Source: a virus
Strand: one strand, 5' to 3'
IMG/VR virus record: IMGVR_UViG_3300023180_000144
Coordinates: 1-39,677 of that record
DNA: 39,677 nucleotides
This document shows positions 33,972 to 39,677 of this stretch, piece by piece (positions within the stretch are counted from its first letter, which is position 1; each line of letters starts with the position of its first letter). Position numbers and translations under genes: made by a program. The notes below the pieces were generated by a model, which did not search any database, had not been told where the DNA came from, and worked only from the letters and a program-made list of their open reading frames with translations.

Positions 33972-34406
33972 ATGAGTTACTCTGGACGTTACAGACCTTC
34001 AAATCCGTCAAAATATAAGGGAGATCCTACAAATATTATTTATAGAAGTTTGTGGGAAAGAAAATTCATGGTCTGGTGTGATAAAAATGAAAACATTCTT
34101 GAGTGGGGTAGTGAAGAAATTGTCATCCCCTACGTTTCTCCTGTTGACGGTAGGGTCCATCGCTATTTTCCAGACTTTTACATCAGAGCACGGACCAGGA
34201 CTGGAGGGATTGCGAAGTTCATTATCGAGATTAAACCAGCGAAGCAGACTGTTGCCCCGAAGAAGCAACGTAGAGTCACTAAAAAATACTTGACAGAAGT
34301 CAAGACCTATGCTGTCAATGATGCGAAGTGGAAGGCAGCAAAGGAATTCTGTGATGATAGAAAGATGCAATTTCTCATCCTCACAGAAAAAGAATTAAAG
34401 GTATGA
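33972..34406 (+). CDS. 4: Head completion protein gp4
   Basis: A 144-residue protein matching T4 gp4 (also called gp50/65; 150 aa), needed to finish filled heads before tail joining. It has a TnsA-like PD-(D/E)XK core: YRSLWERKFMVWCD (Glu29), RYFPDFYI (Asp68) and FIIEIKPAK (Glu86, Lys88). The catalytic residues are all present, suggesting that it could cut DNA. ATG 33972 is 3 nt from the gp48 start on the other strand. It overlaps the next gene by 4 nt. Confidence 0.88.
   Translation: MSYSGRYRPSNPSKYKGDPTNIIYRSLWERKFMVWCDKNENILEWGSEEIVIPYVSPVDGRVHRYFPDFYIRARTRTGGIAKFIIEIKPAKQTVAPKKQRRVTKKYLTEVKTYAVNDAKWKAAKEFCDDRKMQFLILTEKELKV
34037..34044 (-). promoter_or_regulatory. Late promoter TATAAATA inside gp4, for gp48-gp53
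   Basis: TATTTATA on the + strand reads TATAAATA on the minus strand, 69 nt upstream of the gp48 start and inside gp4. It would drive the minus-strand gp48-gp53 operon. Confidence 0.6.
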
Positions 34407-35686: not shown

Positions 35687-36397
35687 ATGCCTTTACCCAA
35701 ACTTGCTCTCCCTGAATATGACTTGGAGATGCCCCTAACTGGTCGAAAGGTCACTTACAGACCCTTCCTGGTTAAAGAAGAAAAACTCCTCTATCTCGCT
35801 ATGGAATCTCAGAATGAGAAGGAGATGATCAAAGCAGTCAAGACTATTATTAAGAATTGCACCAACCTCCAAGAAAGGGAAGTTGACGGTCTTGCAACCT
35901 TTGAAGTTGAATACATCTTCCTCCGTATTCGTGGTAAAGCAGTTGGAGAGGTTAGTGAATTTAAGGTAACTTGTCCAGATGATGAAGTAACTCAAGTCGA
36001 TGTCCAAGTGCCTCTTCAAGAGGTCACTATTGAAGTTCCTGATGATCATGACACTAAAATCATGTTTGATAAAAACGTTGGCGTGGTCATGAAGTATCCT
36101 TCTCTGGATGTCTTCGTTAGTCAAAACATGAAAGAGGATGAGGTCGGTATTGACGACATCTTTGAGCTTGCAGCAACTTGTATTGCTCAAGCATTTGATG
36201 AAGATGAAACCTACGATAACTTCACCAAGAAAGAAGCGATTGATTTCCTGGAGCAACTTAACTCCGATCAGTTTGCTAAGGTCCAAAAATTCTTTGAGAC
36301 TATGCCCAAACTGAAATATACGATGACAGTCCGCAACCCCAAGACCAAGAAAGATAATGAAATCGTATTTGAGGGACTAGCAGCTTTTTTCGCATAA
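35687..36397 (+). CDS. 26: Baseplate hub assembly protein gp26
   Basis: A 236-residue protein similar in size to T4 gp26 (208), which is needed for baseplate hub assembly. Start LPKLALPEYDLEMPLTGRKVTYRPFLVKEEKLLYLAMES is typical of this family. Alternating strand and helix follow (VTCPDDEV, GVVMKYPSLDVF) and the end is KYTMTVRNPKTKKDNEIVFEGLAAFFA. Six codons before the stop the sequence enters a T-rich slippery site; a -1 shift there continues into gp51. The following very long protein looks like a tape measure, so gp26 may be the short form of a tape-measure chaperone pair. Confidence 0.86.
   Translation: MPLPKLALPEYDLEMPLTGRKVTYRPFLVKEEKLLYLAMESQNEKEMIKAVKTIIKNCTNLQEREVDGLATFEVEYIFLRIRGKAVGEVSEFKVTCPDDEVTQVDVQVPLQEVTIEVPDDHDTKIMFDKNVGVVMKYPSLDVFVSQNMKEDEVGIDDIFELAATCIAQAFDEDETYDNFTKKEAIDFLEQLNSDQFAKVQKFFETMPKLKYTMTVRNPKTKKDNEIVFEGLAAFFA
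36385..36391 (+). other. -1 frameshift slippery heptamer T TTT TTC
   Basis: In the gp26 frame the codons are GCT TTT TTC GCA TAA, so T TTT TTC is in the X XXY YYZ register and stops within two codons. After a -1 shift the frame reads TTT TTT CGC and stays open to 36594 through the gp51 residues. Confidence 0.6.
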
Positions 36398-36594
36398 GTC
36401 TGCTGCATGACAATCTTGAAAATTATTACAAGACCAACTTTGCTCTAATGCAGCACCACAAATATTCTCTAACCGAGTTAGAGAATATGATTCCGTGGGA
36501 GAGGGATGTGTATGTGAATCTACTTCTTGCCTTCCTGCAGGAAGAAGAGAGAAGGCGTAATGCCGACAAGAACTCAAACAGAATGTCACTCTAA
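36391..36594 (+). CDS. 51: gp51-like hub assembly protein, probably made as a gp26-gp51 frameshift product
   Basis: The -1 frame from 36391 to TAA 36594 encodes 67 residues: HDNLENYYKTNFALMQHHKYSLTELENMIPWERDVYVNLLL in overlapping stretches, then a charged tail. This resembles cyanophage gp51. The first ATG in this frame is 36448, inside the conserved segment, and no ATG, GTG or TTG lies before it, so independent initiation would lose the first part. I therefore call a -1 frameshift fusion from gp26 (GT form) with the ATG 36448 product as an alternative. The stop shares a base with the next ATG. Confidence 0.65.
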   Translation, partial: RISLLHDNLENYYKTNFALMQHHKYSLTELENMIPWERDVYVNLLLAFLQEEERRRNADKNSNRMSL

Positions 36595-39500
36595 TGTCAA
36601 AAATTAGGTCATACTTAACAGTTAAACCATTCAAAGCAGAGACTAAAGTTGGTCAAAACTTTAATGGTCTGCGCTTGTCGGTAAATCGCCTTGGGAGCAC
36701 AACCCAGGGCATTGGCAAGAGTATCGAATCAATGCATACTCTTCTCAAGTTTCAGAATGAGTTTCTAATAGAGAATAACACATATACTATTGAAACAGAT
36801 AAGAAGCGTGTTAAGAATAAGAAGGTCCTCAAGTCCAAGTTAAAGTTAGAAGAGAAAAAGAATACACAAAAGAGTAGAAGAGATGCTGCAGCGAAGCAGG
36901 CAGTAGATAGAGGCAAAGAAAACGCAGGAAAGGTAGAGAATAAAAAGAAAGAGTTAAAACCAGTCAAGACATTTCTTGAGAAGATCGCAGGATTCTTTAG
37001 CACAGTAATTAGTGCGTTTTTGGTATTTGGTGGTCTTGACTACATCTCAAAAAACGCTGATAAGATAGTTAAGGTAGCAAAGCTATTCTTTACGATAGCA
37101 AAGTTTGCCTACAAGTTAACTAAGATAGGTGTGTTCGCTGTCATGGACGGACTCACCAACATGTTTGGTGACTACTCTGTTAATGGCATCAATGAGAATG
37201 GCATTAAAAGAAAGTTTCGCTTCATGTTTGGATTCATCCAACTCACTGGAGGGTTACTTGCTCTGAGGTATATCACTGGACCTTGGAGAATCCTTACTGA
37301 CCTTAACTTCCTTATTGGAGCATTCAGAGGAGTTTCAGAAGGCAATCAACAGATTGCATTACAAGAAGATCGCATGAAGGGTGGGTATTTCGATGCCCAG
37401 ACTGGCAAATTCATATCCAAAGATGAATATAATGTCATGCGAAAGGCTGCCCGCAAGTCGGGCAATCTTGATGCGTTTGATCAAAGAATCAAACCAAATT
37501 CCACCATGGGTGGCATCAAGAATGGCATGGTTAGACGTGGCAGCAGTGCTGTCAAGGGTCTTGGTGGTAGGATAAGTGGTAAATTAGGTGGTCCTGGCGG
37601 CGTCTTGTCTGCTGTAGGGTCTGTTGCTGGTGGTATTGGTAGAATTGCAGAAGGAGATAGACCAGGGGAAGAGAAAGGCACAGCAGTAGGTGCTGGTGTA
37701 GGTAAAGCGATTGGTGGTATTGCTGGTGCTGCTGCAGGCACAGCGCTGCTTGCACCATTCTTGGGACCATTTGCCCCCATGGTCGGTGGATTTATTGGTG
37801 ACTTCCTGGGTGAGTTTATCGGTGGTCAGATTGGACCCCTGATTGAGCCCATCTTTGGACCCCTCAAACGATGGTTTGGGATGGCAATGGAGGTCATGAA
37901 GGCGGTCTTCGAGCCCCTGTTGAAAGAGATTGGACCATTCTTTGAGGCATTCTTTGGTGTCCTAGGTAAACTGGTTGACTTCATTGTCAAGTGCATATCC
38001 CCTATCATGAAGTTTGTGGGGATGGTGCTTGGTGGTGCCATTCAGATTATTATTAAGACATTAACATTTACATTCAACTTAATTAAGAATATCATTGCAT
38101 TCTCGTTGAATCCTGTTGGATTTGCCTGGAATGTGATTAGAGGTGCAGATCCTGGAAAGGATGTTGACCTGAAGAAAGCAGCACAACAGAAAGAAGCACA
38201 ACAGAAACCAAACGTACAGCAATTTGCTCGTGGTGGTAAGGTAACAGTCCCAGATCTACTTCCACCCAAGATGATGATTGGTGGTGGTCTGCAAATGGCA
38301 GCTACAATGGGGATGGCGAATCCGACTAAGACATTTGATTTAGTTGGTCAGGGTCTCATTGGAGCTTTGTCTGCTGGCGTCAACATGTTTGGATTTGTTG
38401 GTGATGATGTTAGAAGGCACATTTCTGCAGATCTCAACAGACTTCAATCGGAGTTTGGTGGTCAACAGAATGTTGGCACAAATGGTGCTCCATTAGGGAC
38501 TTTGAACAGGGTTAGCGATACTGGTGTAGATCCTAGCGGTGCAGAGAAAGAGAGTGGGAAAAAAGCATCCAAGATTGCTGCACTCCTTGGTCCTGGTCGT
38601 GGACTGCTTGGATTATTAAAGGATGCAATTAAAGCAGAGAAAACTAGGCGAGGTGAAGGGGGCCATTCTGGCACCCCTAGTGGCATCTCTAGTAGCAGTA
38701 GCTCGGGAGATGGATCTGACAATCTTGGGGGGCCGCTTCCATCGGGAAGCGTAGTTGATAAGGGCGCTGGCATCGCCAGAAAATTGATGAGCTCTCTGGG
38801 ATTGAATGCTGGTGCAGCCGCTGGTATGCCTGGCAACTTCGTCGCTGAGTCTAGTCTATTGCCGAATGTTAGAGAGGGTGGTGGCACAGGACATTCTTGG
38901 CCTGCAGGTAGACGTGCTGTACCAGCAGGATATGGATGGGCGCAATGGAGTTTTAGCAGACACGATACGTTTGTAAACAAATTTTTGGGTGGATTTGGTG
39001 GTCCTGGTGGCGCAAGTACAAAAGTTGCCACGGATGAAGATAACTATAAGATGTTGATGTATGAATTGAAAAAACCTGGAGGGGGGTTCTCACCAGCCCA
39101 CAGAGCAAGAGAAGGGATGCGCCAAGTTAGAAGCTTGGAGGACTATAAAAAGATCACGGATCCCGTGGAAGCAGCAAGGGCATTCAGGACATCCTGGGAA
39201 AGAGCGAATGAGGCTCTTGCTCACGATAGTGTCAGAATACAAAATGCAAAAGCAATCTATGAAAAGATTAAATCGGTCGGTGGTTTAGTCGAATTTGCAA
39301 AAGGTGGTAAGTTAAAAGACCAAGGACTCGCAGCTAAGACAAAGCATAAGGTAAGATCTAATGATGGCGCCCCTTCAGAGAATAGGATTGCATTCTCAGC
39401 AAAAGATGCAGAAAAGATGATGTTTGCTGCAGGTGGTGCAGTTAGACCTGCTGGACAACCTGGAAACAAAATGTTTATTCACTGGGTTGCTAGTGGATAT

Positions 39501-39677
39501 ACTTACAAAGGGCATGGATTCTATCACTCTATTGTCCAAGGTGATGGATCTGTTTATCAAGCACACCCATACAGTCAAAAACAAGGTGTTGGTCATACAC
39601 ACTTAAGAACCAGTCAGGGTATTGGTATTAGTGCTGCATGTTTGGGTGGTGGCAGTCCATCTAATTTCGGAAGTTTT
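36594..39677 (+). CDS. Giant tape-measure-like tail protein with lysozyme- and amidase-like segments (3' truncated)
   Basis: The frame runs 1028 codons to the window edge. Residues 1-130 are basic and coiled (KKVLKSKLKLEEKKNTQKSRR). Hydrophobic helices (about 132-155, 160-180) and Gly/Ala-rich spans (322-412) resemble tape-measure proteins. Residues about 744-885 contain GNFVAESSLLPN, GYGWAQWSFSRHD, the pattern of phage tail-lysozyme domains (catalytic Glu, GxAQWxxxR). From about 955, FIHWVASGYTYKGHGFYHSIVQGDGSVYQAH and GVGHTHLRTSQGIGIS match an amidase/peptidoglycan-recognition fold with HW, YH, HT motifs. Likely spans the tail tube and cuts cell wall at DNA entry. The 3' end is outside the window. 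Confidence 0.8.
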   Translation, partial: MSKIRSYLTVKPFKAETKVGQNFNGLRLSVNRLGSTTQGIGKSIESMHTLLKFQNEFLIENNTYTIETDKKRVKNKKVLKSKLKLEEKKNTQKSRRDAAAKQAVDRGKENAGKVENKKKELKPVKTFLEKIAGFFSTVISAFLVFGGLDYISKNADKIVKVAKLFFTIAKFAYKLTKIGVFAVMDGLTNMFGDYSVNGINENGIKRKFRFMFGFIQLTGGLLALRYITGPWRILTDLNFLIGAFRGVSEGNQQIALQEDRMKGGYFDAQTGKFISKDEYNVMRKAARKSGNLDAFDQRIKPNSTMGGIKNGMVRRGSSAVKGLGGRISGKLGGPGGVLSAVGSVAGGIGRIAEGDRPGEEKGTAVGAGVGKAIGGIAGAAAGTALLAPFLGPFAPMVGGFIGDFLGEFIGGQIGPLIEPIFGPLKRWFGMAMEVMKAVFEPLLKEIGPFFEAFFGVLGKLVDFIVKCISPIMKFVGMVLGGAIQIIIKTLTFTFNLIKNIIAFSLNPVGFAWNVIRGADPGKDVDLKKAAQQKEAQQKPNVQQFARGGKVTVPDLLPPKMMIGGGLQMAATMGMANPTKTFDLVGQGLIGALSAGVNMFGFVGDDVRRHISADLNRLQSEFGGQQNVGTNGAPLGTLNRVSDTGVDPSGAEKESGKKASKIAALLGPGRGLLGLLKDAIKAEKTRRGEGGHSGTPSGISSSSSSGDGSDNLGGPLPSGSVVDKGAGIARKLMSSLGLNAGAAAGMPGNFVAESSLLPNVREGGGTGHSWPAGRRAVPAGYGWAQWSFSRHDTFVNKFLGGFGGPGGASTKVATDEDNYKMLMYELKKPGGGFSPAHRAREGMRQVRSLEDYKKITDPVEAARAFRTSWERANEALAHDSVRIQNAKAIYEKIKSVGGLVEFAKGGKLKDQGLAAKTKHKVRSNDGAPSENRIAFSAKDAEKMMFAAGGAVRPAGQPGNKMFIHWVASGYTYKGHGFYHSIVQGDGSVYQAHPYSQKQGVGHTHLRTSQGIGISAACLGGGSPSNFGSF

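Follow-up and report, generated by a model that had tools for sequence, protein, structure and literature searches.

A conserved T_TTT_TTC heptamer at the gp26/gp51 junction of T4-like phages and the probable expression of a tail assembly chaperone pair by −1 frameshifting

Architecture of the gp26/gp51 locus

The window (the whole stretch of viral DNA analysed, 39,677 nucleotides) carries a gp26 gene, a gp51-type extension in its −1 frame and a large ORF that follows directly. The features of this region, with the basis for each, are:

35687..36397, + strand: gp26, the predicted short tail assembly chaperone (TAC-N), 0-frame product of 236 aa (PF12322, phrog_150, AlphaFold2 model)
36371..36374, + strand: GAGG, Shine-Dalgarno (SD)-like, candidate −1 stimulator, ending 10 nt before the heptamer (excess over synonymous shuffles)
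36385..36391, + strand: slippery heptamer T_TTT_TTC (sequence, conservation in related loci)
36391..36594, + strand: gp51 (TAC-C), −1 frame extension of 67 codons from CGC 36391, with TAA at 36592-36594 (phrog_634, phrog_150)
36401..36408, + strand: hairpin 5′ arm TGCTGCAT, about 9 nt after the heptamer (RNA fold, pair counts in the window's own group, A3)
36414..36433, + strand: hairpin inner stem, TCTTG 36414-36418 with CAAGA 36429-36433 (RNA fold, pair counts)
36448..36455, + strand: hairpin 3′ arm ATGCAGCA, which includes the first in-frame ATG (RNA fold, pair counts)
36594..39677, + strand: large ORF, truncated at the window end and carrying a tail lysozyme domain, candidate tape measure (PF18013, phrog_90, weak hits to tape-measure profiles)

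The heptamer is in −1 register at the 3′ end of gp26, the 0-frame of which ends GAG GGA CTA GCA GCT TTT TTC GCA TAA (stop codon 36395-36397), so that one sense codon separates the heptamer from the stop. A preliminary description of this DNA had the slip site in the correct register, but began it at 36383, which is the first base of the GCT codon. Its count of 68 open −1 codons is reproduced from TTT 36388 to 36591; the frame as a whole is open over 36373-36594, with TGA 36370-36372 as its upstream stop. As was also described, gp51 has no start of its own upstream of 36448, where the earliest ATG, GTG or TTG of the −1 frame (an ATG) lies within the conserved part of gp51. No transcription terminator was found at the gp26/gp51 junction.

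gp26 is a full-length member of PF12322 (E=1.4e-64; profile positions 2-219 of 219). In a profile search, phrog_150 was matched by gp26 at positions 5-232 and by the −1 frame at 232-276, the −1 product picking up the profile exactly at the end point of gp26; the −1 product also matches phrog_634 (E=1e-29). The predicted gp26-gp51 fusion (TAC-NC) is 302 aa long, with the junction EGLAAFF/RISLLHDN. For the window's phage, the predicted junction peptide is DNEIVFEGLAAFFR, then ISLLHDNLENYYK, and that predicted for the 0-frame end of gp26 is DNEIVFEGLAAFFA.

The AlphaFold2 model of gp26 has a pLDDT of 87.9. Among solved structures, model residues 1-96 match best to 3fgx (Z 8.1), followed by 2ob9, the tail assembly chaperone of HK97 (Z 7.8), and 3klu, which is YqbN (Z 7.2); a clearly unrelated structure first appears at Z 5.0. 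The predicted N-terminal domain thus resembles the tail assembly chaperone fold, a match that is supportive but short of conclusive because the Z values are middling; the gp26 profile found no match among PDB sequences. For the gp51 part, a small helical domain, a fold search in BFVD gave a best E of 0.6.

The ATG of the large ORF (36594-36596) overlaps the gp51 stop, an arrangement shared by most relatives. The ORF had been described as tape-measure-like; its position, size and weak profile hits suggest this role, whereas homology to T4 gp29 is not claimed, since hhalign comparisons of the downstream ORFs with gp29 returned probabilities of 1-4%, i.e. no detectable homology. Within the ORF, residues 728-891 are a tail lysozyme domain (PF18013), and a second stretch, near residues 925-1021, is endolysin-like. 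Upstream of gp26, an ORF at 34883-35659 matches the tail tube protein families PF23849 and phrog_45 and probably encodes a second tail-tube-like protein, as in KVP40; the gp4 head-closure homologue (33972-34406) matches the TnsA-like endonuclease family PF08722.

Conservation of the heptamer and its flanking elements

Relatives of gp26 are present in 618 phage records and relatives of gp51 in 548. Several scans, covering viral contigs and selected phage records, supplied the related loci; the 260 counted are those in which the gp26 stop could be located, and these were thinned to 123 representatives with <85% nucleotide identity. T TTT TTY stands in register at 258 of the 260 (252 TTTTTTC, 6 TTTTTTT), with exactly one codon between heptamer and gp26 stop at 256 loci. 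The heptamer and open −1 frame, which the preliminary description proposed seeking at this junction in other cyanomyoviruses, are conserved there, and the heptamer is kept in the distant T4-like phages KVP40, Aeh1, Marzo, Melnitz, OspM_OC and phiM7. The same junction pattern occurs in T4-like phages of Methylophilales, Sinorhizobium, Ochrobactrum, Vibrio (KVP40), Aeromonas (Aeh1) and Stenotrophomonas. The two loci that depart from the heptamer belong to Vibrio phage K476 and to a T-even gp51 gene.

Codon choice at the site is strongly constrained. The codon preceding the Phe pair ends in T in 122/123 representatives irrespective of the amino acid encoded (AGT, TCT, GCT, AAT, GAT, GGT), compared with a T-ending share of 32-81% for those same amino acids elsewhere, and TTT is the first Phe codon in 122/123 versus 66% elsewhere. 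Among 110 diverse cyanophage-type genes, both Phe codons of the heptamer show zero synonymous change, the gene-wide minimum. The −1 ORF spans 58-71 codons across all representatives. The slip-site pattern is far beyond chance.

Aeromonas phage Aeh1 (L088:4714-4890) contains an intact but unannotated gp51-type −1 ORF after T_TTT_TTC; gp51 is likewise unannotated in S-SSM4 and ACG-2014d. In Vibrio phage K476 (L091:4690-4910), gp26 and a −1 ORF of gp51 length are joined by a TAATG overlap without the heptamer, which suggests translational coupling, a third strategy.

Upstream of the heptamer, GAGG or GGAGG ends at exactly the spacing seen in the window (10 nt) in 80/123 representatives. A motif of this kind 8-12 nt upstream is found in 85/122, against 36.5 ± 4.9 expected from synonymous codon shuffles, and is missing in about half of the deep lineages. 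The 10-nt spacing falls inside the 9-14 nt range given for SD elements that stimulate −1 frameshifting (PMC5009743), and this internal element is a probable −1 stimulator.

Downstream, where the preliminary description saw no strong hairpin, the window contains a perfect 8-bp stem (36401-36408/36448-36455) around the 5-bp inner stem. Across 122 relatives, the stretch right after the heptamer is the most structured of the region profiled: the mean folding z-score reaches its minimum (−2.17) in the 60-nt window starting 2 nt past the heptamer, whereas most of the region gives values of about −0.3. The architecture differs by clade: the window has 8 bp with an inner 5 bp, the S-PM2 clade has 12-17 bp, and many others have 5 bp and a loop of four bases. 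Hairpins are weak (−4 to −9 kcal/mol) in one subclade, L027 to L055, of the group to which the window belongs. RNAalifold found no single consensus RNA structure across all 122 representatives, structure being visible only within individual clades and as a drop in folding energy at this position.

In the window's own group, 97.9% of cells are paired in the outer helix, and the compensatory change, at one pair in six sequences, is within the shuffle range. Compensatory changes occur at three of the five pairs in a 40-sequence set (A4), which was partly hand-chosen, partly after the hairpin had been seen, and at one pair in each of the other two sets (S-PM2 and the window's group). The covariation score lies above all shuffles for the 40-sequence set and above nearly all for the S-PM2 set. 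We consider this clade-specific hairpin, too, a probable −1 stimulator.

The T4 counterparts and the function of the pair

In T4, genes 26 and 51 are divergent neighbours. Both products match PF12322 over its full length, and they are paralogues by hhalign (E 8.6e-16). T4 gp51 covers phrog_150 from 13 to 280 and, in addition, phrog_634, and so consists of a gp26-like part plus the gp51 domain; T4 therefore has one gene for the short form and another for the long form. T4 gp26 corresponds end to end to the 0-frame product described here and T4 gp51 to the frameshift product, whereas the T-even gene 26 has lost both the heptamer and the −1 extension. The earlier suggestion that gp26/gp51 is the G/GT equivalent of T4-like phages is supported, with the qualification that T4 itself uses no frameshift and has two paralogous genes. 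T4 gp28 (L087:10349-10879), whose gene immediately precedes that of the tape measure gp29, may be a third paralogue of gp26 that has diverged greatly: T4 gp26 hits the gp28 profile phrog_1140 with an E of 9e-4, and gp28/gp26 hhalign probabilities are 23.6% and 1%.

Both annotation and genetic work on T4 assign 26 and 51 to assembly of the hub (PMC3004832), from which it might be argued that the frameshifted pair serves the baseplate hub, as hub subunit and hub assembly catalyst, rather than chaperoning the tape measure; the same 2010 review of T4 gives gp51 as essential and of unknown function. We regard a hub role as unlikely, as gp51 is absent from the T4 particle and both proteins are listed as chaperones (PMC3004832), the predicted fold of gp26 resembles tail assembly chaperones, and short and long forms of one gene ahead of a large tail gene constitute the chaperone pattern. 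Chaperoning of gp29 would, moreover, itself mimic a hub defect, because gp29 is a hub component.

Production of gp51 and relation to known frameshift systems

A programmed −1 slip at T_TTT_TTC very probably yields TAC-NC besides TAC-N, in the manner of G/GT. As in G/GT-type pairs, the second ORF is conserved in the −1 frame, continuous and devoid of initiation signals of its own.

We think it very unlikely that gp51 is instead a separate protein, made by termination-reinitiation or from its own start just past the gp26 stop, with the heptamer incidental. An ATG does lie five codons into the −1 frame in 58/122 representatives, several phages have gp51 annotated on its own in databases, and K476 has its TAATG overlap in place of the heptamer. 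In 22/122 representatives, the window included, there is, however, no ATG, GTG or TTG before codon 16 of the −1 ORF, and an SD 5-15 nt upstream accompanies only 1/100 of the upstream gp51 candidate starts, compared with 56/120 gp26 starts; gp51 is thus not generally made by independent initiation. The conserved −1 residues begin at the slip codons (FFR) rather than at an ATG, and separate synthesis would leave the lack of synonymous change at the heptamer unexplained.

Slippage of RNA polymerase, rather than the ribosome, on the run of six or seven T is still less credible: long runs of A or T are known to cause such slippage, with runs of 9 mentioned (PMC5009743), whereas 252/260 loci have just six T followed by C, and the codon phase, SD spacing and hairpin suit ribosomal slippage, transcriptional slippage needing none of them.

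For the favoured ribosomal −1 slip, we infer the following scheme from the comparative data, including the occurrence and efficiency of slippage, the stimulatory roles and the chaperone function. The majority of ribosomes would stop at the gp26 TAA and release the short chaperone, TAC-N. A minority would be restrained from behind, where the internal GAGG pairs with 16S rRNA, and from ahead by the mRNA hairpin, such that the two tRNA-Phe could slip one base back on T_TTT_TTC; these ribosomes would then read on in the −1 frame to give the 302-residue TAC-NC. Together, TAC-N and TAC-NC may coat the putative tape-measure protein encoded by the next gene and recruit tail-tube subunits, as lambda gpG and gpGT do.

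The heptamer of lambda gpG/gpGT is G GGA AAG, unlike the T_TTT_TTC found here. Lambda makes its short and long forms through a −1 slip close to where the first gene ends, ahead of the gene for the tape measure (PMC5009743), which is the pattern predicted here; the account of lambda in that review describes no SD or hairpin stimulator. In these elements the junction resembles E. coli dnaX, which combines an internal upstream SD, a slippery heptamer and a downstream stem-loop. An SD-like element 9-14 nt upstream and a stem-loop a few nucleotides downstream are both present here, the hairpin varying in architecture by clade and being weak in some. dnaX differs in its heptamer (A_AAA_AAG) and in that slippage, at about 50%, gives a shorter product (PMC5009743), as opposed to the longer product predicted here.

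A 2016 review (PMC5009743) still gave T4 as the exception. Vladimirov, Gautam & Davidson (Virology 2022, 566:9-15), as cited in PMC12846349, reported poly-T slip sites in T4-like TAC-N genes and, as cited in PMC10885494, that some T4-like phages have one short gene and one fused long gene. As far as these citing accounts describe them, the T4-like TAC-N/TAC-NC of that study belong to the same gene family as the gp26/gp51 of the window, and so the core of the present finding is already known. Neither an internal SD nor downstream hairpins are mentioned in the two accounts (PMC12846349, PMC10885494); the SD element and the shifting hairpins around the slip site are possibly a new layer.

On balance, we lean towards the view that most cyanophage-type T4-like viruses carry a dnaX-type cassette (internal SD, T_TTT_TTC and hairpin), in which the hairpin has been repeatedly rewired between clades while keeping its position, and that T-evens dropped the cassette after gene duplication. 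If the hairpin has indeed been rewired yet kept in position, the ratio of short to long chaperone would be under tuned selection. The comparison supports an evolutionary switch between frameshifting, as in most T4-like groups, and the duplicated gene of the T-evens, and it provides natural variants of the probable slip-site stimulators with which the maintenance of a fixed protein ratio can be studied.
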